Source: Terriglobus albidus
Lineage (GTDB): Bacteria; Acidobacteriota; Terriglobia; Terriglobales; Acidobacteriaceae
Assembly (NCBI RefSeq): GCF_008000815.1
Contig: NZ_CP042806.1
Location: 3,100,001 to 3,164,000, forward strand
Direction: 5' to 3'
Length of the DNA: 64,000 nt
Made by a program: the position numbers and the translations under genes. The stretch's first letter is position 1. Each line of letters starts with the position of its first letter. Positions 7,995-23,682 of the stretch are shown here, one piece after another. Below the pieces are notes generated by a model. That model saw nothing but the letters and a program-made list of their open reading frames with translations, was not told the DNA's origin and did no database searches.

Positions 7995-8057
7995 AGAGAA
8001 GCCTCATTTCCTGGTTTCAAGACAACGGATCATGCCGCCGCCATGAAACAGCGACAG

Positions 8058-8438: not shown

Positions 8439-8672
8439 CGCCACTAGTATAGTCCATCTACCGAAACGACTCTGATGTCCTTCGGAGACGGATGAGCTCT
8501 CGTTTGCCCCCAGTAGAAAGCTGCGCTGTAGCCGTCGGCGGCAGCATCAGCGAATTTGAAACGTGATGGCCACCTCGACAGGGCCAGGTCGTATCTCTAG
8601 TGTTTCCAAACAGAAGCGAGCTTATCAGGGCGTTTTCGTGTCAGCAGAATTGAACACGATTTTGTTTTTCTG

Positions 8673-8701
8673 TTGACATCGGATTGTCCCTGACATAGTT
8701 T
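8673..8701 (+). promoter_or_regulatory. Sigma70-like promoter for the TonB-dependent receptor
   Basis: TTGACA at 8673-8678 matches the -35 consensus exactly; a 17-nt spacer leads to TAGTTT at 8696-8701 with the key T, A and final T of a -10. The expected start point is near 8708. The 8445-8672 stretch upstream holds no gene that I can support. Confidence 0.6.
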
Positions 8702-8714
8702 GACCATACGCCAC

Positions 8715-8730
8715 TGAAACGATCATTTCA
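8715..8730 (+). promoter_or_regulatory. Operator-like palindrome downstream of the receptor promoter
   Basis: TGAAACGATCATTTCA is palindromic at 14 of 16 positions, centred on GATC. It sits just after the predicted start point, where a bound repressor would block initiation. An overlapping dyad ATTTCATT/AATGAAAT follows at 8725-8745. The 11-base half TGAAACGATCA recurs at 12720-12730, before the winged-helix regulator gene, which may be a shared site or chance. LacI or GntR family binding is an inference. Confidence 0.4.
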
Positions 8731-8791
8731 TTGGCGAAATGAAATCAAATTGACTCGGTTTTGCCATTCGTCCCCTCGGAGGCACTCCACG

Positions 8792-11700
8792 ATGGACTCA
8801 CGTAGACACGTTCTGGCCGTGTTTATCCTTTTCCTGTTCGGGTTGTTTGGAGCAGGGCGCAGCTTCGCACAAGTAGATCAGGGTTCGGTCGCGGGAATCA
8901 TTCGTGATCCGCAGAACTCGGTCATCGCCGGTGCCAAGGTCAAGCTGATCAACAAAGAAACCAATCTGACGCTGACTCGTTCAACGGATCGGTCGGGTGC
9001 GTACAACTTCACGCCGATCAAGATCGGAACCTACTCTCTGACGATCGAGGCGCCCGGATTTGCCTCGGAGACGCATGACAATATCAAGGTCAGCGTGAGT
9101 CAGACGGTCGGTCTGAACCTGATCCTCAAACCCGGCAGCACCTCTGAAACCATCACGGTGACGGCGGAGACGGAGCTGCAGGCGCAGGAGGCATCGACCG
9201 GTCAGGTCTTCTCCTCGCAGGTGATCAATGACATGCCTCTGGACGGCCGGAACTACGTCTTTGCGGCGCAGTTGACCACCGGCGCATCTGCTCCGAACCA
9301 GGGCTTCCGTCAGGTGGCAGGTGCGGGCGACTTCACTTCGAACGGCAACCGCGTCTCGCAAAACAACTTCATCCTGGATGGCGTCGATAACAACTCCAAC
9401 ATGCAGGACTTCCTCAACGGAGCGACCTATGCGGTGCGGCCTCCGGCGGATGCGCTCGCCGAGTTCAAGGTAGCCAGCAGCGACTACAGCGCTGAACTGG
9501 GCCGCGGGACGGGCGCAGCGATCAATGCCTCCATCAAATCCGGCGCCAATCAGTTCCACGGTTCGCTGTGGGAGTACCTGCGCAACGATCGCATGAATGC
9601 GCTGGACTACTTCGCCACCAGCCGGACCTCCTATCACTTCAACCAGTTTGGAGCGACCTTAGGCGGCCCGATCTGGAAGGACAAGCTGTTCTTCTTCGCT
9701 GACGCGCAGGGAACTCTGATCAATGCCTACAATCCGGCGGTCCCGAATATGACGGTGCCTACCGCACGCCAACGCGTGGGCGATTTCAGTGAGTTGCTCG
9801 ACGCGAACAATACAGCCGGCCGCGGTGTTGTCCATCTCTATCAGCCCGGTGGAACAGCGACTGCGACCATCGGTGGCCCTGCGATCCCGGGAGCAGATCC
9901 GCGCTATCTCTCCTGTAATGGCGCACAGAATGTTATCTGTTCCAGTCAGCTCAATCCGGTCGCGTTGAAGGTGCTGAGCCTGTACCCATTGCCGAATGCG
10001 GCCAACACGCATCAGGCCTTCAACAACTACACCGCACCTGCGACCGCGGTAACGAACAACACTACGCAGTATGACGTCCGTATCGACTACAACTTCTCGT
10101 CGAAGGACCAGATGTTCGGCCGTTACAGCTACTCGAACAATCCAACGAATTACGCGCCTCTGCTGGGCATTCTGGATGGCGGCAGTTTTGGTACGACAGG
10201 GCAGAACTCGAACTACGGCAAGAGTGGTGTCTTGTCCGAAACTCACTTCTTCAATCCGACACTCTCGAATGAGTTCCGCGTGGGCTTCAACTGGCTGTCC
10301 GCGGGCTACCTGGGACCAAATGCGGCGAACCCGGGATTTGCGGCAAGTCTGGGATACGGCGGTATTCCGACGGGTAAGAATCTCGGGGGTCTTCCTCAGA
10401 CGAACTTTGGCGACTCGCGGAGCGGCAACGACGCGGCGACGCAGCTCGGCACCACCGGCTATCTGCCCTCCAGCGAGGTGCAGAATGTGTTGCAGATCAT
10501 CGACAATGTCAACAAGACGCTCGGCAAGCACACCTTCAAGACCGGCATCAACTTCCAGCATGTACGCTTCTACGGACTGCAGCCGCCCAATGGTATTGGC
10601 TACCAGAACTTCAACGGCACCTACACGCTGAATCCGGCGGACAAGGTCAATATCAGCGGTTCGGGTCTGGCCGACTTCCTGTTGAACTCCATGAATAACT
10701 CCGGTCTCAGCACGGTCGCACCTTCCACCGATCTGCGCTGGTACTATTCGGCTTTCCTGCAGGACGATTGGCGGATCTCGCCGCGCCTGACCCTCAACCT
10801 CGGCGTTCGCTGGGAATATGCGCAGCCCATCCGCGAGCTGAATAACAAACAGGCTAACTTCTTCGGCACCTATGCGGGCATGAACCAGGGCACAGGCACA
10901 CTGCTGATTCCGCAGAGCCAGTCGGGTTATCCGATCTCGTCGACGCTGGCCACCACTCTTGCCGCAAATCACATCAACGTGCAGTACACCACCAACAACT
11001 ACCTGGTGCAGCCGAAGCAGTACAACTTCGCCCCGCGCGTGGGCTTTGCCTACATGGTCGATCCGCAGACGGTGCTCCGCGGCGGCTTCGGTATCTTCTA
11101 TGGTGGCCTGGAGAACATCGGCCTGGGGTTGAACCTGGGCTACAACGCTCCGTTCTTCGTGAACTCGAGCTTTATCCCAACACCTTCGCAATGCTACAAC
11201 CTCAATGGCTCGGTGACATGCCCCACCAACGGCCAGACACTTGAGACGGGCTTTGGCGCGGCGGCTACCAGTCCCGCGGCGCTGGCTGCGGCCTCCGGTA
11301 TTGGAACCATCTATGCGCAGGACCAGAATGCGAAGAGCGCGTATAACCTCGCCTATAACCTGTCGTTGCAACATGCGTTCAGCTCCACACTGAGCTTCAC
11401 GCTGAGCTATCAGGCCAACCGCAGCCGTCATCTTCGGATGAGCTATAACGCCAATACTTATGCGGGCTATGTTCCCAGCGGACAGAACGGGCAGAACTAC
11501 GCTCCGTTTCATGATTTCTCCATCGTGAATGTCTCGAATGGGGGAATCGGCGCCTACGATTCGTTGCAGGCCAAGGTTGAGAAGAAGTTTGGCGCCGGCT
11601 TGTACTTCCTTGCCGGCTACACCATGGCGCACTGCCTCGACGACTCCTTTGGTCCCATCGGGCAGTCGGCTTACGGTGGTTACCGCAATCCAAATCTGTT

Positions 11701-12406
11701 GGGATTCAAGTACGACTACGGCTCCTGCACGCAGGATGTCCGCAACCGTTTGACCTTCACTGGCCAATATGAACTTCCGTTCGGCCATGGCAAAGCGTTC
11801 CTCAATCGCAATGCCGTGGTGGACAAGGTGGCCGGCGGCTGGAAGACAAGTGTGACCTTCCAGGCGCAGAGCGGCAACCCGGTGTTTATTACTTCCTCAA
11901 ACCAGGGCTCGAGCTATCCGTACCAGATCGCCGATCCGTTTGCTGTGGGTGCGCCACTGGGTATGGACGCGAACGGCCTTTCGCTCAGCCCAACGCAGCC
12001 GCAGTTCCATTGCGCAACGCAGACCCGTACACGGACGCAGTGGTTCAACCCCTGCTCGTTCATCAATCCTCCGCAGGTGGTCAGCTCTGGAGCCAGTGCG
12101 GCGAATAACACCATCAACGCTTCTGCTGCAGGTCTGCTTCCTTCAGGCCCGCGCGGCCGCGTGGGGGTATACGGCCCAGGCTTCAACCGGACCGATCTCT
12201 CCCTCTTCAAGAACTTTCATATCCCGTATCACGAGAGCAGCCTGCAGCTCCGTGCTGATGCTTTCAATCTGCTCAACACGCCTAGCTTCGGCAATCCGGG
12301 CACCAGCCTCACAGGTACCTCAGGTCAATCCATTACCAGCACGCGCTTCTCCGGGATTCTGTCAGATGCGCGTGTGATCCAGGTGGGCGCTCGCTTCGCC
12401 TTCTAG
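8792..12406 (+). CDS. TonB-dependent receptor, Oar-like, with carboxypeptidase-regulatory-like domain
   Basis: 1204 aa from the ATG at 8792, chosen because GGAGG lies 9 bases before it; an in-frame TTG at 8750 lacks this. A signal peptide ends near GRSFAQ. Residues about 27-110 form a carboxypeptidase-regulatory-like Ig fold (GSVAGIIRDPQNSVIAGAKV). A plug domain follows with PLDGRNY and the FILDGVDNN stretch, then a long 22-strand-type barrel. The last residues RFAF end in Phe, as outer-membrane barrels do. This receptor type is greatly expanded in Acidobacteriota and thought to import oligosaccharides or other large ligands with TonB energy; the ligand here is unknown. Transcription probably starts near 8708 under the operator-like palindrome. 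Confidence 0.9.
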   Translation: MDSRRHVLAVFILFLFGLFGAGRSFAQVDQGSVAGIIRDPQNSVIAGAKVKLINKETNLTLTRSTDRSGAYNFTPIKIGTYSLTIEAPGFASETHDNIKVSVSQTVGLNLILKPGSTSETITVTAETELQAQEASTGQVFSSQVINDMPLDGRNYVFAAQLTTGASAPNQGFRQVAGAGDFTSNGNRVSQNNFILDGVDNNSNMQDFLNGATYAVRPPADALAEFKVASSDYSAELGRGTGAAINASIKSGANQFHGSLWEYLRNDRMNALDYFATSRTSYHFNQFGATLGGPIWKDKLFFFADAQGTLINAYNPAVPNMTVPTARQRVGDFSELLDANNTAGRGVVHLYQPGGTATATIGGPAIPGADPRYLSCNGAQNVICSSQLNPVALKVLSLYPLPNAANTHQAFNNYTAPATAVTNNTTQYDVRIDYNFSSKDQMFGRYSYSNNPTNYAPLLGILDGGSFGTTGQNSNYGKSGVLSETHFFNPTLSNEFRVGFNWLSAGYLGPNAANPGFAASLGYGGIPTGKNLGGLPQTNFGDSRSGNDAATQLGTTGYLPSSEVQNVLQIIDNVNKTLGKHTFKTGINFQHVRFYGLQPPNGIGYQNFNGTYTLNPADKVNISGSGLADFLLNSMNNSGLSTVAPSTDLRWYYSAFLQDDWRISPRLTLNLGVRWEYAQPIRELNNKQANFFGTYAGMNQGTGTLLIPQSQSGYPISSTLATTLAANHINVQYTTNNYLVQPKQYNFAPRVGFAYMVDPQTVLRGGFGIFYGGLENIGLGLNLGYNAPFFVNSSFIPTPSQCYNLNGSVTCPTNGQTLETGFGAAATSPAALAAASGIGTIYAQDQNAKSAYNLAYNLSLQHAFSSTLSFTLSYQANRSRHLRMSYNANTYAGYVPSGQNGQNYAPFHDFSIVNVSNGGIGAYDSLQAKVEKKFGAGLYFLAGYTMAHCLDDSFGPIGQSAYGGYRNPNLLGFKYDYGSCTQDVRNRLTFTGQYELPFGHGKAFLNRNAVVDKVAGGWKTSVTFQAQSGNPVFITSSNQGSSYPYQIADPFAVGAPLGMDANGLSLSPTQPQFHCATQTRTRTQWFNPCSFINPPQVVSSGASAANNTINASAAGLLPSGPRGRVGVYGPGFNRTDLSLFKNFHIPYHESSLQLRADAFNLLNTPSFGNPGTSLTGTSGQSITSTRFSGILSDARVIQVGARFAF

Positions 12407-12519
12407 AGCTTTTCTCCTGTTGCTGGGTATCCCGTGAGGGGCGTGCAGCGGCGTTTTCCTTGGGGAAAACGCCCATAGATGCACGAGCCCTGCACTACAC
12501 CTACAGGAGAAATGCTCTA
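12404..12519 (+). repeat. Palindromic repeat family A, copy 1
   Basis: 116-bp element with inverted ends (left arm TAGAGCTTTTCTCCTGT, right arm ACAGGAGAAATGCTCTA) and an inner hairpin around GGCGTTTTC/GAAAACGCC. Its first three bases form the TAG stop of the receptor gene. Confidence 0.85.
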
Positions 12520-12530
12520 ACTCCGTATAT

Positions 12531-12578
12531 GACGGAAGCTGTTTCGGTGGCTATCACCGCCGAAGCAGCTTCTTCGTC
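12531..12578 (+). terminator. Hairpin between two family A repeats
   Basis: An imperfect long stem (GACGGAAGCTG...GG paired with CC...CAGCTTCTTCGTC, loop CTATCA) lies between repeat copies 1 and 2. It could end receptor transcription, though no T-run follows. Confidence 0.45.
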
Positions 12579-12589
12579 ACCCGGGTATC

Positions 12590-12702
12590 TAGAGCATTTT
12601 TCCTGTTGCTGGGTATCCCGGTAGGGGAGTGCAGCGGCGTTTTCATTGCGAAAACCCCATAGATGCGGAAGCCCTACGCTACAGCTACAGGAAAAATGCT
12701 CT
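12590..12702 (+). repeat. Palindromic repeat family A, copy 2
   Basis: 113-bp copy with arms TAGAGCATTTTTCCTGT and ACAGGAAAAATGCTCT. Same orientation as copy 1 and separated from it by 70 bp. Not adjacent to a stop codon, but its left flank is again CTAG. Confidence 0.85.
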
Positions 12703-12767
12703 CTTCATTTGTTAATTCATGAAACGATCAGTCCATCGTTGGCACTATCTCTACGAGGTATCCGACT

Positions 12768-12986
12768 TTGGAGAACAAGCAAAATTGCTATCAACCGGGG
12801 CATCCCAGTTACGAGTTGCCGAAGGGCAACTTGGATTTACTCAGCAGCCTCACTGATGTAGAAGCCGGCAGCCAAGCGGCGAGGACGCTGCGATGCGAAG
12901 CTCTGTTTCAGGGCGTCGGAGAGTACTGCATCCAGCGTGAGCAGAATCTGTCGAAAAAGAGAACGTCGAAAGCAATGTCGCTATGA
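12768..12986 (+). CDS. Possible small protein coupled to the winged-helix regulator
   Basis: 72 aa from a TTG start, unrecognised, hydrophilic, with four Cys residues. The only arguments for it are that its stop overlaps the next gene's start as ATGA and that the next gene has no ribosome site of its own, as expected under translational coupling. A weak GAGG lies upstream of the TTG. Could be a chance frame. Confidence 0.27.
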   Translation: MENKQNCYQPGHPSYELPKGNLDLLSSLTDVEAGSQAARTLRCEALFQGVGEYCIQREQNLSKKRTSKAMSL

Positions 12987-13423
12987 CACGTTCTTACCGC
13001 TTTGGTCCATTCATCTTCGATCGATCGTTAAACTGTCTCACGAGGTCAGGCAAAGATGTTCTGCTGACCAAACGGCAGTTCCATACGCTTGGGGTTCTTC
13101 TGGATGCAGGAGGCGATGTAGTCGGCCCTGAGGTTTTTTTTGAGAAGGTTTGGGTCGGTACCTCGGTCGAGAAGTCCAGCCTTACTCAAACAATCTTCAT
13201 GCTTCGCCGGATACTCGGTCGATTGCCGAATGGTGAAAGCTATATCGAAACCGTACCGAAACAAGGCTATCGCATCTCGAAGGGTGCGACAGCGCAAGTC
13301 TTAGTGATGCCCTCCCCATCAGGCCAGAACAGGAAAGAATTCAACTGGTATCTTCCGGGCAGCGCTATCCTGGTGGGCTGGTGTCAGATTATTACTTCAT
13401 TTGTCTGGCGCTTGATCATGTAA
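12983..13423 (+). CDS. Membrane-anchored winged-helix regulator (CadC/ToxR-like, short)
   Basis: 146 aa. Residues about 5-98 form an OmpR/PhoB-type C-terminal winged helix: YRFGPFIFD opening strands, LTKRQFHTLGVLLDAGGDVV, a recognition helix around SSLTQTIFMLRRIL, and the wing with YIETVPKQGYRI. After a short linker a single hydrophobic segment (residues about 121-142) ends the protein. ToxR/CadC regulators place the DNA-binding domain in the cytoplasm and a sensor outside the membrane; here there is almost no outside domain, so sensing would need a partner or the membrane itself. It lies 586 bp before the sigma-factor gene, the same way round, and could act on either neighbour. Confidence 0.75.
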   Translation: MTRSYRFGPFIFDRSLNCLTRSGKDVLLTKRQFHTLGVLLDAGGDVVGPEVFFEKVWVGTSVEKSSLTQTIFMLRRILGRLPNGESYIETVPKQGYRISKGATAQVLVMPSPSGQNRKEFNWYLPGSAILVGWCQIITSFVWRLIM

Positions 13424-13726
13424 GGATCAAGCGCTGCTTGCTCCCGGAACAGCCGAGGCATCTCTGCCATCGCGACGGCGTCGGAAAGTGTGATTGTGCT
13501 GGCAGCTCTGTCGGGCCGAGGTAGCATCCGCTGCCGAGCATGAAAAGCAAAAAAGTAATTTTCTTACATGGAAATGAAACGGTCGACGCCTGGATAACAC
13601 TATAACTCTGTAAGCACAGAACGAGTTTCAACCAGGTACCTATCTGCTGAATGCTCCAACCGCCTGGGGGGCTTTCCAGAGGGACCTCTCGATTGCTTCT
13701 ATTGTTTGACTTCTGGTTCTCCCTGG

Positions 13727-13866
13727 TTCCAACCGTTGGCTTGCCAGCGGCTGAAGGACGTCCTTCCTCGATTGGTTGACGTTCTCCGGCGTGGCAAGCC
13801 TGTTGGAAGGTATGCGATCCGATGGCATAGGAGATGCCCATCATTCGATTTTTCGAAGGAGCGAAA
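13727..13866 (+). promoter_or_regulatory. Structured 5' leader of the sigma/CHAT locus (candidate cis-acting RNA)
   Basis: Three consecutive foldable units precede the small ORF. Unit one: TTCCAAC plus GGCTTGCCA (13727-13746) pair with TGGCAAGCC plus GTTGGAA (13792-13808), enclosing a perfect 14-base palindrome GAAGGACGTCCTTC (13753-13766). Unit two: GATGGCAT (13821-13828) pairs with ATGCCCATC (13834-13842, one bulge) and carries AGGAG in its loop. Unit three: TTCGA/TCGAA (13844-13857), whose 3' arm overlaps the first two bases of the AAGGAG ribosome site at 13856-13861. Not a riboswitch class that I recognise. The preceding 13424-13726 holds nothing I can support. Confidence 0.45.
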
Positions 13867-13868
13867 CC

Positions 13869-14012
13869 ATGTGCTGCCACCAAAAACGAAGCGTCCCGAA
13901 GGGCGCGTCCAGTGATTCGGCTGGAGTATATCTGCCTTCTATAAGTCAACCGGTTGATCGTCGCTATGCCGTTCCGATGCTGCGGTGCCGTCTGTACAGG
14001 GCTGCAAAATGA
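13869..14012 (+). CDS. Small leader ORF, 47 aa, coupled to the ECF sigma gene
   Basis: ATG at 13869 is preceded by AAGGAG with a 7-base spacer, one of the best ribosome sites in the window. The stop TGA overlaps the sigma-factor ATG (ATGA, 14009-14012), so ribosomes finishing here could restart on the sigma gene. The product is a basic 47-aa peptide with Cys at positions 2 and 3 and another in PMLRCRLYRAAK; no membrane segment. Unrecognised. It may be a leader peptide that sets sigma-factor translation, or a small protein of the system. Confidence 0.5.
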   Translation: MCCHQKRSVPKGASSDSAGVYLPSISQPVDRRYAVPMLRCRLYRAAK

Positions 14013-14746
14013 ATTCGGCTCTGAAGTCTGATTCAACTGCCTTGCCTGAAATGTCGACTGTTCGTCCTCATATAGTTACTCGTGACCGCAGGACGCGACT
14101 CCGGCCGTCCAGCCCGATGCTATACTTGGCTTCTTCCAGGACGACGACAACGGAGCCGACGTTGGAATTCCACGCATTCAATGCGCAATATATTGAAAAC
14201 CTGCGCAAAGGGGACATCCCTACGCAGAACCATTTTGTTGCGTACTTTAGCGCCCTGATTCACATTAAGCTGCGTTCCAGGCTGCAGTCGCCTCAAGCGA
14301 TAGAAGACGTGCGGCAGGAGACTTTTGCACGCGTGCTGGCAATGCTAGGCAAAGAAACGCCACTGCGCCGTCCGGAGGCGTTGGGCGCGTTCGTAAACTC
14401 CGTCTGCAACAACGTGTTACTGGAACACTACCGGTCGAAGACACGTACCCAATCACTGGACGAATTCGATCGACCGGAGCTTCCCGCGCTGGACACAGAC
14501 ATCGTTGGCCAACTGGCGGCCGGCCAACTAAAGAATAAGGTGAGTGAAATTCTGCTGGGTATGCCCAGTAAGGACAGGATGCTACTGAAAGCGGTCTTTC
14601 TCGAGGAGAAAGACCGGGATGAAGTTTGCAAAGAGTTTGGAGTAGATCGCGAGTATCTGCGTGTTCTGCTCTTCAGGGCCAAGAAGGAATTCAAGACCGA
14701 GTATTTAAAACGGGCCAGGTTTGGATCTTATGTGCAACGAGCATGA
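14009..14746 (+). CDS. ECF-type RNA polymerase sigma factor
   Basis: 245 aa. The sigma region 2 helix IEDVRQETFARVL (residues about 98-110) is the core-polymerase and -10 contact segment. Region 4 spans about 180-230 with the helix-turn-helix RDEVCKEFGVDREYLRVLLFRAKKEF. The N-terminal 50 residues are extra compared with a minimal ECF factor and look unstructured. The start at 14009 is chosen because it overlaps the stop of the 47-aa leader ORF as ATGA; a GTG at 13985 and ATGs at 14051 and 14117 are alternatives. The adjacent gene encodes its likely anti-sigma factor. Probably controls its own locus plus unknown targets. Confidence 0.82.
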   Translation: MNSALKSDSTALPEMSTVRPHIVTRDRRTRLRPSSPMLYLASSRTTTTEPTLEFHAFNAQYIENLRKGDIPTQNHFVAYFSALIHIKLRSRLQSPQAIEDVRQETFARVLAMLGKETPLRRPEALGAFVNSVCNNVLLEHYRSKTRTQSLDEFDRPELPALDTDIVGQLAAGQLKNKVSEILLGMPSKDRMLLKAVFLEEKDRDEVCKEFGVDREYLRVLLFRAKKEFKTEYLKRARFGSYVQRA

Positions 14747-14805
14747 AACGGACCAGAGGCTCGATGCACCACCTGATAGGACGTGCCGTCTGAGGGAACA
14801 TTTCC

Positions 14806-15504
14806 ATGGATCATAACGAAGCAAAACTAAAGATGGCGTCAGAACGATACCTCATTGGCGAGCTTGCACCTGAAGAGCTAGATGCCTTTGAGGAACACAT
14901 GTTCAGCTGTCCTGAGTGTGCATCGGACGTGGGTGCCGCGGATACCTTTATACGAGAGGCTAAGGAGCAGTTGGTCAATTTTCCTGAGGCACTCCCAAAG
15001 CCGGCTGCAGCTGAATCGGCGCCAGCGGAACCTGGGAAATTCCGCTGGTTCTCTTTATTCAAACCCTCATTTGCGGCGCCCGTATTTGCAGGCTTGCTGG
15101 GAGTAATCGCCTATCAAAACCTGTCTGTCATTCCGAGACTGCGATCTGCAGCAACAGGTCCCCGAATCATTCCCTCCTTTGCCAGCCTGCACGTAGGCGC
15201 GCGTGGTGGTGATGCTATCTCCATCCTTGCGGACCGGGAGCAAGGGGCAATGGTGCTGGTTCAGCTTCCGCAAAGCGGATCGTACTCGTCCTATGTCTTC
15301 GACTTCTACGATTCGACCGGCAGGCAGTTGTGGTCCAGGACGGCTCCAGCTCCCGGCCCGGCGAGCGAGGGAACCCTCTCGCTGGCGATTTCTCCCATCG
15401 GTCTGCAATCGGGTTCGTATACACTTGCCGTCTCGGGAATTTCCGCTGCTGGGCAACGCGCCGAGATCCACCGGCAGACTCTCGACATTCACCTCGGGCC
15501 CTAG
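14806..15504 (+). CDS. Zinc-finger (zf-HC2) transmembrane anti-sigma factor
   Basis: 232 aa. The N-terminal anti-sigma domain has the zinc signature HMFSCPEC (H31, C35, C38) inside a helical LIGELAPEELDAFEEH context, the standard ECF partner fold. A hydrophobic segment near residues 86-105 (FAAPVFAGLLGVIAY) would cross the membrane once. The following ~125 residues read as a beta-rich extracytoplasmic domain (VLVQLPQSGSYSSYVFDFYD and LQSGSYTLAVSGI). Such proteins hold the sigma factor at the membrane until modified or cleaved. The gene lies 59 bp after the sigma gene and 40 bp before the unknown gene. Topology with the outer domain in the periplasm is inferred from the single segment. Confidence 0.8.
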   Translation: MDHNEAKLKMASERYLIGELAPEELDAFEEHMFSCPECASDVGAADTFIREAKEQLVNFPEALPKPAAAESAPAEPGKFRWFSLFKPSFAAPVFAGLLGVIAYQNLSVIPRLRSAATGPRIIPSFASLHVGARGGDAISILADREQGAMVLVQLPQSGSYSSYVFDFYDSTGRQLWSRTAPAPGPASEGTLSLAISPIGLQSGSYTLAVSGISAAGQRAEIHRQTLDIHLGP

Positions 15505-15544
15505 AGTCTCCCCTATTCCGACAAAAAGGATCTCGCGAACTGCC

Positions 15545-16384
15545 ATGTCAGAAGTGAATCAGAGAACTCACACATATCATGCAGAAGCAACGGCGCTTAG
15601 TGGCAGCATTATTCAGCCTCTGAAGCACAAGTTCTATCAGCAGGCTTACTCAAAACTAAGTGATCACGGCGGTTATCTTTCGCAACGATCCGAGCTGTTC
15701 CGTGTGGAAGAGGTTCTCTCTTACAGGGCGGCCTATACACAGGTCGGCGGTCAGCTTGATCCCAAAGAAGGCCTTGGATGGAGCACGCTGACAACCTCTG
15801 TTGTTGAGGGGTTGAATATTCTGGATGTGTTGACAGCTGACCGGGTTGTCGCTCAGCTGTCGACCGTGCATCCGCTTACAGGCTATGTTCCAAGCATTAG
15901 TTTTCTTGGAACGCGCTTTGAGAACCTGCGCATTGCCGGCCACAAGGTCGAGCTACGGTTGGATCTGGATCTTTTTGGCAACAAGCCTGCTGGAGATCGT
16001 CCTTACATCGGCGATCCCGGGGTAGACGAACGTATAAGCCGTCAACATAAGGCTATTCGTGAGTGCGACAACCTGCCACATGCGATCTCCGCGAGATATA
16101 TGGCTCAACCCGTTGGCGAAAAGGGAGCCACATCCGTGTACGGCTCATTGAGCACGGAAGTAGGAGGGTCTTATCCGGGGCGCACATTTGGTCACATGAT
16201 CGATATACCGAACTTTGGCCGGATCTATCTGGCAACCTTCCGTCTTGAGCACTCGGACTTCGAAAAGGGAATTCCGAAGAAGACACTTCTGAACCTCAAG
16301 ATGATTGAAGTTCAGATGGGATGCATTGCTTCCGGAGATGTAGACGTATCCGATTCGATTGTGAACGGCGCAACAGTGCCATAG
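15545..16384 (+). CDS. Conserved-looking protein of unknown function in the sigma/CHAT locus
   Basis: 279 aa from the ATG at 15545; the open frame runs further upstream but overlaps the anti-sigma gene. No signal peptide or membrane segment. The composition is that of a folded protein, with a central stretch GLNILDVLTADRVVAQLSTV followed by GYVPSISFLGTRFENLRIAG and alternating hydrophobic strands VELRLDLDLFG. The C-terminal ~25 residues (after MGCIASG) are Asp, Ser and Val rich and may be a flexible tail. I do not recognise the family. Its place between the anti-sigma gene and the protease gene makes it a candidate substrate or output of the protease. Confidence 0.75.
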   Translation: MSEVNQRTHTYHAEATALSGSIIQPLKHKFYQQAYSKLSDHGGYLSQRSELFRVEEVLSYRAAYTQVGGQLDPKEGLGWSTLTTSVVEGLNILDVLTADRVVAQLSTVHPLTGYVPSISFLGTRFENLRIAGHKVELRLDLDLFGNKPAGDRPYIGDPGVDERISRQHKAIRECDNLPHAISARYMAQPVGEKGATSVYGSLSTEVGGSYPGRTFGHMIDIPNFGRIYLATFRLEHSDFEKGIPKKTLLNLKMIEVQMGCIASGDVDVSDSIVNGATVP

Positions 16385-16417
16385 GTCATTTCCAGTCGAA
16401 CTCCGAAGGCTTGCGAC

Positions 16418-18943
16418 ATGATGGCGGATAGGAAGATTCGGTTGCCAAAATGGAGATGGTTGCGGACCATTACGGTTGCAGCCACGCTCCTTCTACTGAT
16501 GCTTCTTAGCGGTTCGCTCCCGGTCAATCCAGAGGCCGAATACCAAACGGCGCGCTTGCACTTTTTGCACGGGCAACTTGAGCAGAGTCAAAACGAGGCG
16601 ACCCGAGGGTACGCGCGGTATCTCACATCAAAGGGCGATTGGTCCTCCAGATTCCAACTTCTGGAAGCAGAATCGATGTTGTATCGCGGATTGTACAGCG
16701 ATGTGATGTCTCTTTTAGCAAACTATCCCAGGATTCAAACCAGGACAGATGAGTCCATTCATGAGTTGACGTTAGAGGCTATAGCATTCGCGCGGCTCCA
16801 CCAGTACGAGGTTTCTAAGCAGAAACTCTCGCAGGCAGAAGACCTTTGCAGCGAAGGCTCATTCGATAGCTGCGGCGGAGTCATGATGGCGCATGGACTT
16901 CTAGCTCTAGAGCGCGGAGAGTTTGAGGACAGTAATCAGCAGTTCAAGAACAGTCTTTCCTTTGCTCGTAAGCACAACGATGAATGGCTGCAGACTGCGT
17001 CACTGCTGAACATGGGTGCCTCCGCATTACAGCAGGAGCACTTTGATGAAGCGGTGAGCTATTCGGAACAAGGGTTGAAAAGTGCCCGTGCACTGGGGGC
17101 CGAGAACAACATTCAAACGGCGCTTGGGAATCTGGGCTGGGCTTACTACGGGCTGGGTGACAACGAGCGAGCATTAGAACTGCTCAAAGAGGCTGAACAA
17201 CAGGCCGTCAAATTAGGTAACACACGAACTGTGATCAAGTGGCTGGCGGCTGAGGGTACCGTTTATCAAAAGACAGGTGATCTGTCGCAAGCCACCCAGG
17301 CATACCGTCAAGCTCTCAACTTAGCAACGCGGATCGGTAGCAAAACAGACATTATCAATTCGCTGGAACGCCTGGCGCATCTCTCTGCGGAACTGGGAAA
17401 GCCGCTTGAAGCGAACCAGTACATCAGAGAGGTCACACCGCTAACGAGGGCAAGCGGGAACCGTCTCCATGTGCTGGACATAATGTTAGTTCAGGGGCGG
17501 GTTGCCGCCGCGGAGCGCAAAGACAAAGAGGCCGAAGATATATTTCGCACAGTCGAGGAGGATCCAGCAAGCCAAACCTCGATGAGGCTCGGCGCCGGAC
17601 ATCAGCTCGCAAAACTTTACGAGACACAGGGCAAGACTTTAGTCGCCGATCGTACATACAAAGCAACACTCGCTGCGTTTGTACTAGCTCAGGACGAGCT
17701 TAAAAACGAAGATTCGAAGTTGCCCTTTGTTGCAAATGCCGCGGCCATCTATGGCGACTATATTCATTTCCTTGTTCAACAAAGTAAACCGGAAGAAGCG
17801 CTGGCAGTGGCCGACCAGAGCCGTGCGCGAACGCTGGAGCAGGGGCTAGGTCTTTCCACAAGTAAGAGGACACTCAGCCCTCTCTTGCAGGCTCGAACAG
17901 TGGCTCAGAAGTCCGATTCGACGCTCTTGTTTTACTGGCTCGACGAAAAACAATCGTACCTATGGGCAATAACTCCCAAGAAGGTAGCCCTCTATATCCT
18001 ACCCGCGCGACGCGAAATAACCGATCGTGTTGAACGATACCGAAAAGTTCTGTTGGGGCCGAGTGACCCGTCCAGCTCTGGAAATGAGGATGGGCGTGCG
18101 CTGTATCGCATGCTTGTTGCTCCGGCTAGAGACCTGCTTCGTCCAAACTCGCAAGTCGTAGTTCTGGCTGACGGTGCATTGAGCAAGTTGAACTTTGAAA
18201 CGCTCATTGTTTCCGACTCAGAAGTTGAGCCTCAGGCCTCACATTATTTGGTTGAGGATCTTACGTTACTCTCCGCTCCGTCCATGCTGGTGCTGGCAAA
18301 TTCGCAGGCTGCGCGTAACGAAGATAAGAAGCTTCTGCTATTGGGAGATGCCGTTTCTCCAGGCCCGGAATATCCTAAGCTGCCGATGGCCGCCACCGAG
18401 ATGGGTGAGATTGAGAAGCATTTTGCGCAGGGAGAGCAAACTGTCTTTTCTCGCGAACAGGCCACAGCGCACGCGTATTTTCAAAGTGCGCCGGAACACT
18501 ATGGCTATATACACTTTGTGGCCCATGCAGTGGCGAGCAATACCGCTCCCCTGGACTCAGCAATTCTGCTTTCACGCAATACATCGTCTCAAGACGACTC
18601 CTTCAAGCTGTATGCAAGACAAATCCTGCAGCGTCCGATCCATGCGGAGCTGGTAACGATCTCTGCGTGTTACGGCAGCGGGATGCGGTCGTATGCAGGG
18701 GAGGGACTTGTCGGCTTGTCCTGGGCCTTTCTGCGTGCTGGAGCCCACAACGTGATTGGTGCGTTGTGGGAAGTGAGCGACGAATCGACGCCGCAGCTGA
18801 TGGGTGGTCTCTATCAGGGATTGGAAGCTGGCTTAAGTCCCCCGGACGCGCTCCGTCAGGCTAAATTGAAGCTTCTCCATTCGAATAGCAACTTTCGCAA
18901 ACCATACTATTGGGGCCCCTTCCAGTTATATTCAGGCCTGTAA
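16418..18943 (+). CDS. Membrane-anchored TPR-CHAT protease
   Basis: 841 aa. A basic N-terminus followed by one hydrophobic segment (residues about 15-34, TITVAATLLLLMLLSGSL) suggests anchoring with the bulk outside the cytoplasm, or an uncleaved signal. Residues about 60-480 contain TPR-like helical repeats (ALGNLGWAYYGLGDNERALELLKEA, AEGTVYQKTGDLSQATQAYRQAL). The C-terminal CHAT caspase-like domain (about 600-841) has His703 in HFVAHA and Cys751 in ISACYG, the expected catalytic pair, then SWAFLRAGA and ALWEVSD. CHAT proteases are relatives of caspases and separase. It is the last gene of the four-gene run and probably cuts a partner encoded there; that is inference. Confidence 0.85.
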   Translation: MMADRKIRLPKWRWLRTITVAATLLLLMLLSGSLPVNPEAEYQTARLHFLHGQLEQSQNEATRGYARYLTSKGDWSSRFQLLEAESMLYRGLYSDVMSLLANYPRIQTRTDESIHELTLEAIAFARLHQYEVSKQKLSQAEDLCSEGSFDSCGGVMMAHGLLALERGEFEDSNQQFKNSLSFARKHNDEWLQTASLLNMGASALQQEHFDEAVSYSEQGLKSARALGAENNIQTALGNLGWAYYGLGDNERALELLKEAEQQAVKLGNTRTVIKWLAAEGTVYQKTGDLSQATQAYRQALNLATRIGSKTDIINSLERLAHLSAELGKPLEANQYIREVTPLTRASGNRLHVLDIMLVQGRVAAAERKDKEAEDIFRTVEEDPASQTSMRLGAGHQLAKLYETQGKTLVADRTYKATLAAFVLAQDELKNEDSKLPFVANAAAIYGDYIHFLVQQSKPEEALAVADQSRARTLEQGLGLSTSKRTLSPLLQARTVAQKSDSTLLFYWLDEKQSYLWAITPKKVALYILPARREITDRVERYRKVLLGPSDPSSSGNEDGRALYRMLVAPARDLLRPNSQVVVLADGALSKLNFETLIVSDSEVEPQASHYLVEDLTLLSAPSMLVLANSQAARNEDKKLLLLGDAVSPGPEYPKLPMAATEMGEIEKHFAQGEQTVFSREQATAHAYFQSAPEHYGYIHFVAHAVASNTAPLDSAILLSRNTSSQDDSFKLYARQILQRPIHAELVTISACYGSGMRSYAGEGLVGLSWAFLRAGAHNVIGALWEVSDESTPQLMGGLYQGLEAGLSPPDALRQAKLKLLHSNSNFRKPYYWGPFQLYSGL

Positions 18944-18946
18944 CAT

Positions 18947-19868
18947 CTAGGTGATCTCGGCAATCTCCGTCGAAGCTTCGAAATAGCGCACGTGATCGAG
19001 ATCCGAAATAAGGCCAGGCTGTCGCGGGAGCCATCCCCATAATTTCTGAGTGGCCGCACTGGAGGCGGGCATATCGAGACTTAGGGCGTGACCGAGAAAA
19101 CCGAAATGCTCAACCGCTTCGCCCGGAGACTTGCTCACGACGGGTAATCGTAGCCGGTGTCCTATAACCTCAGCAATCTCACGTATCGGCACTCCCTCGT
19201 CAGCGACCCCGTTATATGTGGTTCTCGCTGTTTCTCTCTCCAGTGCCAAGCGAAAGAGATGAGCAGCATCGAGCCGATGTATTGCAGGCCAGCGGTTGAG
19301 CCCATCTCCCACATACGCCGAGACGCTGCGTTGTCGGGCGATGGCGATCATCTCCGGAATAAATCCGTTGTCTCCTTCGCCATGGACGATTGGGGGGGAG
19401 GCGAACCACAGACGCATGCACACCCAGTGCTGTTGCTGTCTGCACTGCCTCTTCTGACGCGATGCGGGGAATTCCGGAAGAGATGGATTGCGGATCCTCT
19501 TCGGTTGCGAATTGACCCATAGTGCGAGCCACTCCGGTGCCAGAGGCAACGACCAGAGGACGATTCGAGCCGGCGAGTCCGGAGCCGAGGGCCTCGATCG
19601 CCCGGCGATCCATTTCGCAGCTCGTCGTCCAGTTTGTGAAGTCGTGGACGAAGGCTGTATGGATTACACCGTCGCACATCGCTGCTCCGAGACGAAGGCT
19701 TTCCTGATCTTCCAGATCACCCCGGTGTATCTCGACGCCCGCAGCGGCCAACGACTTTGCTCCGGCTGCGGAGCGGGTAAGTCCTAATACCCGATGTCCC
19801 GCATCGACTAATTCCGTAACGATTGCTGAGCCGATAAAACCCGTTGCTCCTGTGACAAAAACGCGCAC
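18947..19868 (-). pseudogene. NAD(P)-dependent epimerase/SDR, frameshifted at a G7/C7 tract
   Basis: The N-terminal part (start 19868) has the extended-SDR motif TGATGFIGS and continues to HASVVRLPP. The rest of the protein, starting [14 protein letters not shown], continues in another frame to 18947. The switch lies exactly at seven consecutive G on the plus strand (19392-19398). With six, the two halves join as one intact protein of about 305 aa. This can be a true mutation, a contingency tract or a base-calling error. The family includes nucleoside-diphosphate-sugar epimerases and related reductases. It converges on the CHAT gene with 3 bp between stops. Confidence 0.82.
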
Positions 19869-20094
19869 ACGCCCATCCTGTGCTCATTGTATGAGCCACA
19901 AGCTTGATTCTCTTACGATCATGCCCAAGTCGATACACAACTAATCTCCGAGGCCTAACAATCTCGCGTGTGAGTCAGCCTACAAAGCGCGAAGGTTGCC
20001 TGCCAAAAAGGTTGCCTTTGCAGCATGAAATTAGAAGGTGCAACAGGAAAACGATATGTGCCGTCTGAGATTCCAGTCGCTTCGGGAGTTAGTT

Positions 20095-22098
20095 ATGAAG
20101 GGCTCTTCGTATTACCTGGGTGCTGCATTAGCGATGGGAGTTTGCTGTTCTTCACTGGCACAAAATACCGCACAGTGGACACCATATGGGCCGGGCGGAG
20201 GGGACGCCCGGTCGTTTGCGCAGGATCCCTCGGACCATAACCACGTCTACCTTGGAACCTTGCTGGGAACAGTCTATGAGTCCCGTGACGGAGGCAGGAG
20301 CTGGGTTCGACTGACACAGATCGAAAATCGAAATGACCTGGCTTTGGACAACCTGGTGGTGGACAGGAGTGACCCCAGGCATCTGGTGGTGGGCGCGTGG
20401 GTGCTAGGTAAGACTGATGGAGGCGTGTATGTTTCGCATGATGCCGGCCGTACCTTCACGGCGAACGCAGCGATGAAGGGGCATTCGGTGCGGGCATTGA
20501 GCGCGGCTCCTTCGGACGCGAAGGTGCTGGTCGCGGGCGCTCTGGATGGGGTGTATCGATCGGAAGATGGCGGCGAGACGTGGAACCGTATCTCGCCGAT
20601 AGAGAACAAAGAACTTCATGAGGTGGAGTCGATTGCGATTGATCCCACTGACCCGAAGACGATCTACGCGGGAACCTGGCATCTGCCGTGGAAGACGGTC
20701 GATGGAGGAGCGAACTGGACACAGATGACGAAGGGCATCGTTGATGACTCGGATGTCTTTTCAATCATCGTGGACCAGGCGAATGCGCAGAATGTCTATC
20801 TCTCTGCTTGTTCCGGAATCTATCGCAGCACAGATAAGGGAGCGAGCTATACGAAGGTGAAGGGTATTCCCTCGACGGCCCGAAGGACTCGTGTGCTGAT
20901 GGAGGATCCAAAGCAGCCGAACGTGGTGTTTGCCGGAACGACTGAGGGGATCTGGCGCACAGAGGATGCGGGGCAGACGTTTGCCCGCAATGGAGACTTG
21001 GCCTGGACCGTGAATGATATCGCCGTGGATGCGTCGGACAGCAATCATGTTCTTTTGGCTACGGACCGACATGGGGTGCTGCTGTCCAACGATGGCGGCA
21101 AGAGCTTTACGCAATCGAACCAAGGATTCTCAGCGCGTCAGGTAACAGCAATGCTGACCGATGAAGCCCATCCGCAGTGGCTGTATGTTGGCGTCTTGAA
21201 TGACAAGACCGCGGGCGGCGTGTTCGTGAGCGAAGACGGCGGGGAACACTGGAAGCAGAAGAGCGAAGGGCTGAAAGGCGCGGATGTACTGTCGCTGTCG
21301 CAGGCGCCGAATGGAACACTGCTCGCCGGAACGGTACGTGGGCTTTACCGGATGGAGGGCGAGGTGTGGAAAGCATCGGGAATGGTTTCTCCTCTACAGC
21401 CTGAACCAATTCCGGACAAGCAGATCAAGCGCGGCAAACGCATTGTCACGATCAAGGCTCGTCAGCCGCGGCCGAAGCCTGCGGTGGAGACGACGGCGCG
21501 CGTGGATTCGATGAGTGTGTCAGGCAGCTCCGTTTTTGCGACCTTGCCCGATGGGGTAATCGTGTCGCAGGACGAGGGACGGCACTGGAATCACATTCGA
21601 ACCGCAGCGGGCGTGCCGCTTCACAGTGTTGCAGCGACCGGGAAGCGGGTCCTGGCAGCGGGTGGGGACAAGCTGCTGCTGTCTGTGGATGGAGGAGTGA
21701 GCTTCCGTGCGATAACGCTACCGTCAGGTCTGGCCGAAACCTGGGCCACGGCCGTGGATGACATGGAGCGCTTGTGGATTGCCGGCAGAGGCGGGTTGTT
21801 TTATTCCGAGGACGAAGGCGCCACGTGGAAGATCCATAAGAACCTGTACCTGACGAGCGCGAGCGGCCTGTACTTCGATCGGGCCGGTGGCCGTGTGCTG
21901 GTAACGCCAGGAGACCCGGAGACCAAGGTCTATGCGGTAAATACAAGCGCGATGACGGTGACGAGCTGGGATGCAGGGTGGTCTGTAAAGCAGGTACGTC
22001 CGGTCGGCGAACGGCTTGCAGGAGCAACGACGTACGAAGGTGTGGTGCTACAACCGAAAGCGGCGAACAGTGATACGGCGGTGGCTGAAAGGCAGTAG
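20095..22098 (+). CDS. Secreted BNR/YCF48-like beta-propeller protein
   Basis: 667 aa from the ATG at 20095, chosen for the GGGAG six bases before it and the signal peptide (MKGSSYYLGAALAMGVCCSSLAQ) that follows. The body is made of repeated sialidase/Asp-box blades: SRDGGRSWVRL, SEDGGETWNRI, STDKGASYTKV, TEDAGQTFARN, SNDGGKSFTQS and SEDGGEHWKQK. This gives one or two seven-bladed propellers of the VPS10/photosystem-assembly type. No catalytic sialidase residues can be assigned with confidence. A basic Pro/Arg stretch (IKARQPRPKPAVE) links two propeller halves. Function unknown; likely periplasmic or extracellular. Confidence 0.82.
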   Translation: MKGSSYYLGAALAMGVCCSSLAQNTAQWTPYGPGGGDARSFAQDPSDHNHVYLGTLLGTVYESRDGGRSWVRLTQIENRNDLALDNLVVDRSDPRHLVVGAWVLGKTDGGVYVSHDAGRTFTANAAMKGHSVRALSAAPSDAKVLVAGALDGVYRSEDGGETWNRISPIENKELHEVESIAIDPTDPKTIYAGTWHLPWKTVDGGANWTQMTKGIVDDSDVFSIIVDQANAQNVYLSACSGIYRSTDKGASYTKVKGIPSTARRTRVLMEDPKQPNVVFAGTTEGIWRTEDAGQTFARNGDLAWTVNDIAVDASDSNHVLLATDRHGVLLSNDGGKSFTQSNQGFSARQVTAMLTDEAHPQWLYVGVLNDKTAGGVFVSEDGGEHWKQKSEGLKGADVLSLSQAPNGTLLAGTVRGLYRMEGEVWKASGMVSPLQPEPIPDKQIKRGKRIVTIKARQPRPKPAVETTARVDSMSVSGSSVFATLPDGVIVSQDEGRHWNHIRTAAGVPLHSVAATGKRVLAAGGDKLLLSVDGGVSFRAITLPSGLAETWATAVDDMERLWIAGRGGLFYSEDEGATWKIHKNLYLTSASGLYFDRAGGRVLVTPGDPETKVYAVNTSAMTVTSWDAGWSVKQVRPVGERLAGATTYEGVVLQPKAANSDTAVAERQ

Positions 22099-22162
22099 GG
22101 AGATCGCTCTGGTTGAACTATTCCGAACGAAGCCTGCTGCGCCCACCCTTTAGACTCGACAC

Positions 22163-22600
22163 ATGGCGCTCAAACGGATGGACAACGTAGGAATCGTGGT
22201 CGATGAACTCGAAGAGACCATTGAGTTCTTTCGAGAGCTCGGACTCGAGCTCGAAGGACGGGCTACGATCGAAGGCGAATGGGCAGGACGTGTCACCGGA
22301 CTCGGCGATCAGCGCGTCGAGATCGCCATGATGCGCACGCCGGACGGCCACAGCCGTCTCGAACTCTCTCGCTTCCTCACGCCGCCTGTCGTGGCGGATC
22401 ATCGCAACGCCCCAGTGAATGCTCTAGGCTACCTGCGCGTCATGTTCGCCGTCGATGACATCGACGAGACGCTTGAAAGGCTTCGCAATCGGGGCGCGCA
22501 GCTCGTGGGAGAAGTCGTCCGGTATCAGGACTCGTATCGGCTTTGCTACATCCGCGGGCCTGAAGGGATTCTGATCGGGATCGCCCAGGAACTCCGCTAA
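22163..22600 (+). CDS. VOC family protein (glyoxalase/bleomycin-resistance fold)
   Basis: 145 aa. Two beta-alpha-beta-beta-beta modules typical of the vicinal-oxygen-chelate fold: the first from LKRMDNVGIVVDELEETIEFFRELG, the second from GYLRVMFAVDDIDETLERLRNRG. It ends IRGPEGILIGIAQEL, where the usual metal-ligand Glu appears. Members include glyoxalase I, dioxygenases and antibiotic-binding proteins; substrate cannot be told. No ribosome site precedes the ATG. Instead TAGACT ends seven bases before it (22151-22156), so the message may be leaderless. Confidence 0.85.
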   Translation: MALKRMDNVGIVVDELEETIEFFRELGLELEGRATIEGEWAGRVTGLGDQRVEIAMMRTPDGHSRLELSRFLTPPVVADHRNAPVNALGYLRVMFAVDDIDETLERLRNRGAQLVGEVVRYQDSYRLCYIRGPEGILIGIAQELR

Positions 22601-22665
22601 CATAGGCACTGAAGCGCATCGCCCTGTTAGTCTCCTAGGCGTGATGGTTTACGTTCGGAGGGATT

Positions 22666-23511
22666 GTGCTCAGGACTACTAGACTCGTACCAATCGCGTT
22701 GCTGGTAGTTCTCGCGTTTGCCGGTACCGTGCTTGGCCAGTCAAGCTCGCTAGTCTCATCTGCTCAGAGTCAAGTTTCGGTGCCGCTGCCACCCGACGCA
22801 GATCCCTCGTTTGAAGTTGCCACTATCAAACCAAGTGACACCACTGCTCCGCACGGCACGGGCATTCGGAGCAACGGCAACCGCGTTGCTGCGTTTAATT
22901 TCTCCATCGGCGAGCTCATTGCTTATTCCTATGGTCTTCACGCGAAGCAAATTATCGCCGAAGCGTCATTTCCTCTTGGCACACATTTTGATATCGAAGG
23001 TGTACCTAATTTCGTTGGTCATCCGAACATCACACAATCACGACGGATGTTTCAAAGGCTGCTTGTTTCTCGTTTCAAGCTTGAGTTTCGCTATGAATCC
23101 CGCGAGCTTTCGGCATACGTGATCCAAGTTGCCAAAGGGGGACCCAAGCTCGTACAGACTACGCGGAAGCCCAGCGATCGCACAGGCTTCTCTTACAACT
23201 GCCAGGTCGTCCTCACCGTCCGGAATGCTTCTATTGCCGACGTAGCGAGAGGCATGCAAGAGGCCTTCATGGACAAACCCGTCGTCGATCAAACCGGCCT
23301 GCATGACCGATACGACTTCGACCTCAAGTGGACGCCTGATGAATCACAGAGCTACTGTCCCGTCGATTCGTCGCACTCCAATAACGATCCCGAGGCTCCT
23401 CCGGGGCTTTACACCGCGATTCAAGAACAGATTGGGCTGAAGCTTGTTCCCACAAAAGCCTCGGTACAAGTGATGGTCATCGACCACATTGAAGCGCCCT
23501 CTGAAAACTAG
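22666..23511 (+). CDS. TIGR03435 family secreted protein
   Basis: 281 aa from a GTG preceded by GGAGGG. A signal peptide (LLVVLAFAGTVLGQ) is followed by the family's opening FEVATIKPSDT and RSNGNRVAAFNFSIGELIAYSYG. The mid section MFQRLLVSRFKLEFRYESRELSAYVIQVAKGGPKL and the end DRYDFDLKW plus QIGLKLVPTKASVQVMVIDHIEAPSEN are also typical. This family is largely confined to Acidobacteriota and Planctomycetes, often near BlaR1/M56 peptidases, and has no known activity. No such peptidase is seen here. It is the strongest single taxonomic marker in the window. Confidence 0.88.
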   Translation: MLRTTRLVPIALLVVLAFAGTVLGQSSSLVSSAQSQVSVPLPPDADPSFEVATIKPSDTTAPHGTGIRSNGNRVAAFNFSIGELIAYSYGLHAKQIIAEASFPLGTHFDIEGVPNFVGHPNITQSRRMFQRLLVSRFKLEFRYESRELSAYVIQVAKGGPKLVQTTRKPSDRTGFSYNCQVVLTVRNASIADVARGMQEAFMDKPVVDQTGLHDRYDFDLKWTPDESQSYCPVDSSHSNNDPEAPPGLYTAIQEQIGLKLVPTKASVQVMVIDHIEAPSEN

Positions 23512-23540
23512 GCGACGTCGGAAGTTGTGCCACTGCCCGG

Positions 23541-23644
23541 CTGTCACTGAGTATTCCGGAAGGGACGTGCAACGGCGTTTTCATTGCGGCAAACGCCCAT
23601 GGATGGGAAGCCCCGCTCTCTACACCTACAGAGAAAATGCTCTA
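23541..23644 (+). repeat. Palindromic repeat family A, copy 3 (left end degraded)
   Basis: 104 bp, aligned from CTGT on the left to the right arm ACAGAGAAAATGCTCTA. The outer ~15 bases of the left arm are missing. It lies between the convergent TIGR03435 and ADOP genes. Confidence 0.75.
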
Positions 23645-23682
23645 AGCACAAAGGCGATGATGTAGAGCGGCGAATGCCGGCC

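Follow-up and report, generated by a model that had tools for sequence, protein, structure and literature searches.

A sigma factor, zinc anti-sigma factor and TPR-CHAT protease cassette, mostly from soil Acidobacteriota, as a probable CRISPR-independent gene switch

In a 64,000-nucleotide stretch of the Terriglobus albidus chromosome (hereafter, the window; positions 3,100,001–3,164,000 of the 6.4-Mb single-contig genome, NZ_CP042806.1), four consecutive genes encode an extracytoplasmic function (ECF) sigma factor, a zf-HC2 anti-sigma factor, a 279-aa protein and a TPR-CHAT protease-like protein. The cassette occurs mainly in soil Acidobacteriota and probably works as a gene switch under protease control, independently of CRISPR. 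That it represents a protease-sigma module, with a sigma factor, an anti-sigma factor, a protease and a promoter signature of its own, is well supported at the sequence level, because the four genes are co-inherited, the catalytic dyad of the CHAT domain is intact, the predicted topologies of the anti-sigma factor and the CHAT protein are compatible, and the loci share a promoter-like motif. We give slightly more than an even chance to the more specific reading, namely, that the locus is a self-regulated envelope-signalling module in which CHAT cuts the anti-sigma factor and thereby frees the sigma factor; that the anti-sigma factor is what CHAT cuts is our best guess.

The sigma factor is recognized by TIGR02937 (sigma70-ECF; 50.4 bits, cut-off 42.9), with Pfam Sigma70_r2 and r4_2 scoring slightly under their cut-offs, and 13 orthologues share 46–66% identity with the window copy. 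The anti-sigma factor is matched by Pfam zf-HC2 (26.8 bits, cut-off 22.2), and the product of the only CHAT gene in the genome is matched by Pfam CHAT (E 5.5e-51) and TPR_12 (E 2.3e-20), with both His703 and Cys751 present. The first-pass annotation of the window had described four genes on one strand and an intact His/Cys pair, and the coordinates of the open reading frames (ORFs) and the protein sequence agree with it: all four genes are on the plus strand, separated by gaps of 59, 40 and 33 bp. The sigma factor start that it had placed at 13727 had to be abandoned, since the frame from there contains two in-frame stops and homology with the sigma factors of other loci begins only at about 14162 (Table 1). 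A sigma70-like -10 element, GATGCTATACTTG (14118–14130), directly precedes the revised start, and similar elements are found in several relatives.

The co-occurrence of the four genes indicates that their arrangement is more than chance. When 101 relatives were searched with the 279-aa protein as the seed, it was present in 15; the 14 other seed loci all carry the genes for the anti-sigma factor, the 279-aa protein and CHAT in order, and 13 of them also have a matching sigma factor, with an unmatched 226-aa ORF in the sigma position of the remaining locus (L030). The CHAT query (E<=1e-40) matched 17 of the 101 relatives, comprising the 15 seed genomes, G055, which has a full cassette with a diverged 279-aa copy and had been missed earlier, and G075, with a weak partial match; the cassette is present in 16 of the 101 genomes, and in G058 a different contig holds a second CHAT match. 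Within the genus, the remaining 18 genomes matched neither the 279-aa nor the CHAT query, and the distribution of the cassette is therefore patchy.

A scan of GTDB contigs yielded 76 named loci, a sample that its seeds bias towards loci with the 279-aa gene. With one exception, these are labelled as Acidobacteria or genera thereof, including Terracidiphilus, Granulicella and Edaphobacter. The exact order, from the sigma factor to TPR-CHAT, is found in 66 of the 76 loci (68 if two with a split frame are counted), four are cut by contig ends (L032, L064, L079 and L107) and four depart from the order (L043, L100, L103 and L061, the last taken up below). L043 consists of the 279-aa and CHAT genes only, with no sigma factor at E<=1e-20 in that genome, and L100 and L103, both labelled Edaphobacter lichenicola, are rearranged. 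In the reverse test, the sigma profile (E<=1e-30) matched 21 of 396 genomes of the phylum, all 21 being among the 23 that encode the 279-aa protein. The two other 279-aa genomes are G268, with the four genes in order and a weaker sigma factor (73.7 bits), and G329, with the 279-aa and CHAT genes and no recognized sigma or anti-sigma factor. By coordinates, the sigma factor lies about 2 kb or less from the 279-aa gene in 18 of the 21 genomes; G353 is split by contig ends, and in G251 and G416 the sigma gene is elsewhere, without a recognized anti-sigma gene beside it, while the 279-aa, CHAT and anti-sigma genes still stand together. L103 comes from the same genome as G416 (identical sigma coordinates), and the genome of L100 likewise keeps its sigma factor away from the cassette locus.

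Beyond the Acidobacteriota, the 279-aa profile (E<=1e-6) matched one of 398 genomes of the phylum of Luteimonas (Pseudomonadota) and two of 247 genomes of its family, Lysobacteraceae. Both matching genomes of the family carry the four genes in order, which suggests transfer of the cassette as a unit. The expectation that the four genes recur elsewhere in this order is thus borne out by the 66 of 76 loci and by the two Luteimonas-family genomes. Spread by plasmids was considered and rejected, as the 279-aa protein of the window has no match in 72,556 plasmid records. Among the four families, the highest correlation of distances is that between the anti-sigma factor and CHAT (Spearman 0.774 over 71 loci, uncorrected for shared ancestry).

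Across the 84 CHAT proteins, the dyad is retained in every readable sequence (His 78/78, Cys 79/79), so that its conservation among orthologues, the lack of which the first-pass annotation had named as refuting its reading, is confirmed. Searched against PDB, the CHAT profile matches 8rot, separase and Csx29. The N-termini are hydrophobic, with a median 13-residue hydropathy maximum of 2.55 (lowest 1.37, in L103); export is called here throughout by hydropathy. A lipobox-like [GAS]C occurs shortly before the TPR part in 57 of the 84 proteins under a looser rule that replaced an earlier, stricter one (36/84), and is not found by it in 27, among them the protein of the window and many that are close to it; in L097 the lipobox lies further upstream. 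The AlphaFold2 (AF2) model of the anti-sigma factor (mean pLDDT 86.7, pTM 0.53) consists of a helical N-domain, one long helix (87–116) that would form a single transmembrane segment, and eight outer strands. The zinc motif (H31, C35, C38) is invariant in all of the 46 anti-sigma sequences compared, from a total of 84, and the profile retrieves from PDB chain 3hug_B (E 4.7e-4), which we take to be an anti-sigma factor, and the antisigma factor DdvA (E 0.62). The outer sandwich resembles Ig, FN3 and CopC-like folds (14 matches at E<=0.001), with a TM-score on the query of 0.35 at most among the matches listed, the domain being half of the protein. By its sigma factor, zinc motif, single predicted membrane segment and modelled outer domain, the pair is an ECF sigma factor with a zinc-binding (ZAS) anti-sigma factor. 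Given the hydrophobic N-terminus of the CHAT protein and the predicted topology of the anti-sigma factor, CHAT and the outer domain should lie on the same side of the membrane, a placement that had been proposed earlier and that hydropathy bears out.

The 279-aa protein is less easily placed. The window copy has no Pfam match and scores weakly against NCBIfam NF040603 (choice_anch_P; 22.3 bits, below the cut-off of 27); NF040603 matches 14 of 15 family members at E<=0.1 (best 2.2e-12), and the Luteimonas copy, at 30.4 bits, is over the curated cut-off. Choice-of-anchor P proteins are secreted and anchored, with a signal peptide and a surface anchor, whereas the 279-aa proteins, although alike by profile, have no visible signal peptide: hydropathy indicates no signal-like N-terminus in any of 86 sequences (13-residue mean, highest 1.70, median 0.70). 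The AF2 model (mean pLDDT 87.2) has no match to solved folds at E<=0.001 (best TM-score on the query 0.19 among the 50 matches listed), and the profile finds nothing among PDB sequences up to E 5. A Csx30 chain exists in PDB, and no chain of that name was retrieved with the profiles of the 279-aa protein and the anti-sigma factor; a Csx30-like role of the 279-aa protein was set aside, having neither sequence nor fold support. TPR-CHAT proteases are also known to cleave gasdermin. It might be argued that the 279-aa protein is the substrate of CHAT, as Csx30 is of Csx29, and that the product acts on the cell or on the sigma factor, considering that the two genes are adjacent and co-inherited and that Csx30 provides a precedent in type III-E systems (PMC10028731). 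We regard this as distinctly unlikely, because the 86 sequences show no hydrophobic export signal whereas CHAT has one, and because no fold or PDB sequence match connects the protein to such a role. The probable role of the 279-aa protein is that of an output or of a partner in the cytoplasm, rather than of a protease substrate. Accordingly, of the two targets that the first-pass annotation had offered for a protease releasing the sigma factor, the anti-sigma factor is plausible and the 279-aa protein less likely, given that no export signal is seen; the cleavage itself is what we infer.

A fusion protein bears on the pairing of the anti-sigma factor with CHAT. At a second locus of genome G341 (L141:14670-18912), the gene for an ECF sigma factor (TIGR02937, 45.1 bits, cut-off 42.9) precedes one for a 1233-aa protein. 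This protein combines two Hx3Cx2C motifs (at 86 and 145) with a hydrophobic segment at about 226–244 (19-mer mean 2.35 at 226) and a CHAT domain (E 2.5e-37) that keeps its His and Cys; beside the locus, on the minus strand, lies a further copy of the cassette sigma factor (13635-14375). We read the zinc motifs as anti-sigma fingers, and the fusion argues that the anti-sigma factor and CHAT act together across the membrane. The fusion protein has matches in 16 plasmid records, none of which covers 80% of it (about a third at most among the matches listed). Because it shows coupling and is silent on catalysis, the fusion would also suit a TPR-CHAT protein that serves the anti-sigma factor as a sensor or partner without catalytic activity, the true site-1 protease being encoded elsewhere in the genome. 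Such an arrangement seems very unlikely to us, as His and Cys are never replaced in the readable copies and both are retained in the fusion itself.

Motif discovery in 92 regions upstream of the sigma gene (84 non-redundant) revealed a dyad enriched above shuffles (16 sequences versus at most 6 in five shuffles), the promoter-like TGAAACG-N16-CACTA. Among the 70 named loci with a sigma factor, exact copies lie inside the sigma/anti-sigma gap in 28, where they end 0–65 bp before the anti-sigma start, and 50–1150 bp upstream of the sigma gene, on either strand, in 44; 58 loci have the motif in at least one of these positions. A set of 100 sites was picked by the exact pattern, and only the flanking preferences that it shows are new. 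In L100, where the sigma gene has moved, the 279-aa gene is preceded, at a distance of 74 bp, by a copy with N15. The window has five matches at up to two mismatches, which is not unusual (15 of 100 shuffles reach five). The exact motif (spacers 15–17) occurs only twice in the 6.4-Mb genome, both times within 1.5 kb upstream of the sigma gene (Table 1); since the reversed pattern also occurs twice, the number is ordinary and the position is not. Just before the more distal copy (12402–12702), two blocks (67 and 52 bp; 88% and 83% identical) recur at a spacing of about 185 bp. The interval from the upstream motif to the sigma gene was checked in 33 regions for a conserved small ORF; the idea was rejected, as the most widely shared ORFs extend into the sigma frame.

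Among the 101 relatives, the exact motif occurs 47 times in the 16 cassette genomes (14 of which have at least one) versus seven times in the 85 others (in 7/85), a difference for which Fisher's p of 2e-10 is a guide only, the genomes being related. By hand count, the reversed pattern occurs 21 times in the former and 53 times in the latter. It is thus about twice as common per cassette genome, and part of the excess is therefore due to genome size or make-up; the 35-fold difference is not so explained. Since cassette loci contributed to the derivation of the motif, sites outside the cassette provide a fairer test: there are 27 in the 16 cassette genomes versus seven in the 85 others, and 21 of the 27, compared with one of the seven, fall outside mechanically called ORFs. 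The sequence case for an autoregulated promoter is strong. With the motif directly before the anti-sigma, 279-aa and CHAT genes in 28 of 70 loci, CHAT becomes a predicted target of the sigma factor, and could be the output of the circuit rather than its trigger, another protease freeing the sigma factor, which would induce CHAT to cut envelope or foreign proteins. Locus L061, with the regulators and no CHAT at the locus, is consistent with this possibility. It is nonetheless unlikely, considering that the G341 protein joins anti-sigma-like zinc motifs to CHAT beside another sigma factor, and that it is the distances of the anti-sigma factor and CHAT that correlate best.

Table 1. Predicted features of the cassette and its upstream region in the window
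Feature	Position	Strand	Basis
ECF sigma factor gene	14162..14746	+	frame open from 13985; homologous part from TTG 14162
zf-HC2 (Hx3Cx2C) anti-sigma factor gene	14806..15504	+	Pfam zf-HC2, AF2
279-aa beta-rich protein gene, choice-of-anchor P relative	15545..16384	+	NF040603, AF2, hydropathy
TPR-CHAT protease-like gene, N-terminal membrane segment, His703/Cys751	16418..18943	+	Pfam, conserved dyad
Predicted ECF promoter upstream of sigma gene, TGAAACG-N16-CACTA exact	13575..13602	+	motif scan
One-mismatch motif (CACCA), overlapping sigma stop codon, before anti-sigma gene	14744..14771	+	motif scan
Second exact motif copy, 236 bp before small winged-helix gene	12720..12747	+	motif scan
Short winged-helix (Trans_reg_C) protein, possible regulon member	12983..13423	+	Pfam E 5.3e-12; next ORF after 12720 motif

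In the envelope-signalling module that we favour, the anti-sigma factor would, at rest, keep the sigma factor tethered at the membrane. An envelope signal would be sensed by the TPR part of the exported protein, upon which the CHAT part would make the site-1 cut in the anti-sigma factor, either in its outer domain or in its stalk, and housekeeping proteases would complete the cleavage. The freed sigma factor would then transcribe the genes for the anti-sigma factor, the 279-aa protein and CHAT from TGAAACG-N16-CACTA, plus further genes in other genomes.

Several observations weigh against this reading. CHAT as a predicted sigma target fits an effector as well as an activator, and L061 keeps the sigma, anti-sigma and 279-aa genes with no CHAT at the locus, the search there being confined to the locus. 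In G035, the CHAT gene (L026:9966-12652) is broken into two frames with a stop, and the protease may have been lost. Hydropathy is a weak predictor of export, the highest value among the 279-aa proteins exceeding the lowest among the CHAT proteins (1.70 > 1.37). The relationship to Csx29 (7y9x) is distant (profile E 1.2e-4), and phmmer, with the window CHAT protein as the query, retrieves only TPR-type matches from PDB (25 chains at E<=0.01). The G341 fusion is a single case, the only such ORF of at least 200 aa among the fetched loci; Pfam calls in it neither zf-HC2 nor a confident TPR (best TPR E 0.016), and the sigma factor beside it is not the cassette sigma factor. Finally, G052 and G093 have the cassette and lack the exact motif, and the T. 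albidus genome has no distant exact-motif targets.

The sole regulon candidate outside the cassette in that genome is the small winged-helix gene at 12983. In other genomes, genes following the motif encode a multicopper oxidase/galactose-oxidase-like protein, an FAD-dependent oxidase, a response regulator, a metallophosphoesterase and NPNYFGN repeat proteins of about 735 aa, which appear beta-rich by eye and have no Pfam match in those scanned. The latter (L106:1039-3243 and upstream genes in L033, L035, L041, L054 and L065) contain NPNYFGN, VRAILSW and WGN repeats behind the motif and are without a signal-like N-terminus. As a fixed fifth component of the cassette, the NPNYFGN protein was rejected, being encoded in five of the 101 genomes (three with the cassette and two without) and absent from the T. 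albidus genome. In G057, a phage-type tail sheath gene begins 264–423 bp downstream of the motif, depending on the start chosen, in a cluster whose other genes look contractile-injection-like by eye; the coordinates of such a cluster in a cassette-bearing genome are L228:787-17910 (minus strand), where the motif comes first and the tail sheath is identified by Pfam, the rest by eye. Among 38 downstream ORFs of at least 200 aa, a crude list that includes a cassette gene, a duplicate and probably spurious frames, nine have a strongly hydrophobic N-terminus. Linking the regulon proteins to unconventional export is speculation. A broader scheme would combine these elements: an exported TPR-CHAT protein that, without CRISPR, is dedicated to a zinc anti-sigma factor as its site-1 protease or fused sensor, and a sigma factor commanding, via TGAAACG-N16-CACTA, extracellular-type proteins, many without visible export signals (the choice-of-anchor P relative, multicopper-oxidase/galactose-oxidase-like and NPNYFGN proteins), and, in one genome, a contractile-injection-like cluster that could export such cargo. 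We consider this scheme unlikely as a whole.

The surroundings of the cassette are in line with the earlier statement that the locus has no CRISPR: Rfam detects neither a CRISPR-like array nor a known RNA family over the whole window, and no CRISPR-like repeats are present at 8000–25000. A defence island was likewise considered and rejected, as the 10 neighbouring proteins scanned have no PADLOC match at E<=1e-5; among them are matches to a peptidase, an efflux pump, a TonB-type outer-membrane protein, an epimerase, a VPS10/BNR protein, a glyoxalase, DUF3738 and MacB/FtsX. The epimerase-like gene (18947–19868, minus strand) seems to be split across two overlapping frames and is possibly a frameshifted pseudogene.

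We found no paper on a sigma factor/zf-HC2 anti-sigma factor/CHAT cassette outside CRISPR, and the known systems resemble it in part. DegS acts on RseA at site 1. With DegS-RseA-sigmaE and RsiW, the cassette shares an inner sigma-binding domain, one transmembrane segment, an outer domain that could be cut and, by prediction, autoregulation, whereas its candidate site-1 protease would be a caspase-fold TPR-CHAT protein encoded alongside. The nearest published hint is the ECF54 sigma factors, which have CHAT, subtilase and carboxypeptidase neighbours and for which proteolytic control has been proposed; in section 3.3 of that source, ECF54 is presented without an anti-sigma factor in its context, whereas the cassette has one (PMC8999054). 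The nearest studied case is Csx29-Csx30-CASP-sigma of the type III-E Craspase, where the TPR-CHAT protease Csx29 cuts Csx30; the source, which also cites DegS/RseA, describes a TPR-CHAT protease tied to an ECF sigma factor and an inhibitor, as in the cassette (PMC10028731). By contrast, the inhibitor in the cassette is a membrane zf-HC2 anti-sigma factor, its CHAT protein has a membrane segment and no CRISPR-like array was seen nearby. The compact module and its predicted promoter make signal, cut and output testable in a laboratory host. If our reading is correct, control of sigma factors by TPR-CHAT proteases extends beyond CRISPR, and the Craspase-sigma link may have been drawn from a wider class of sigma switches.

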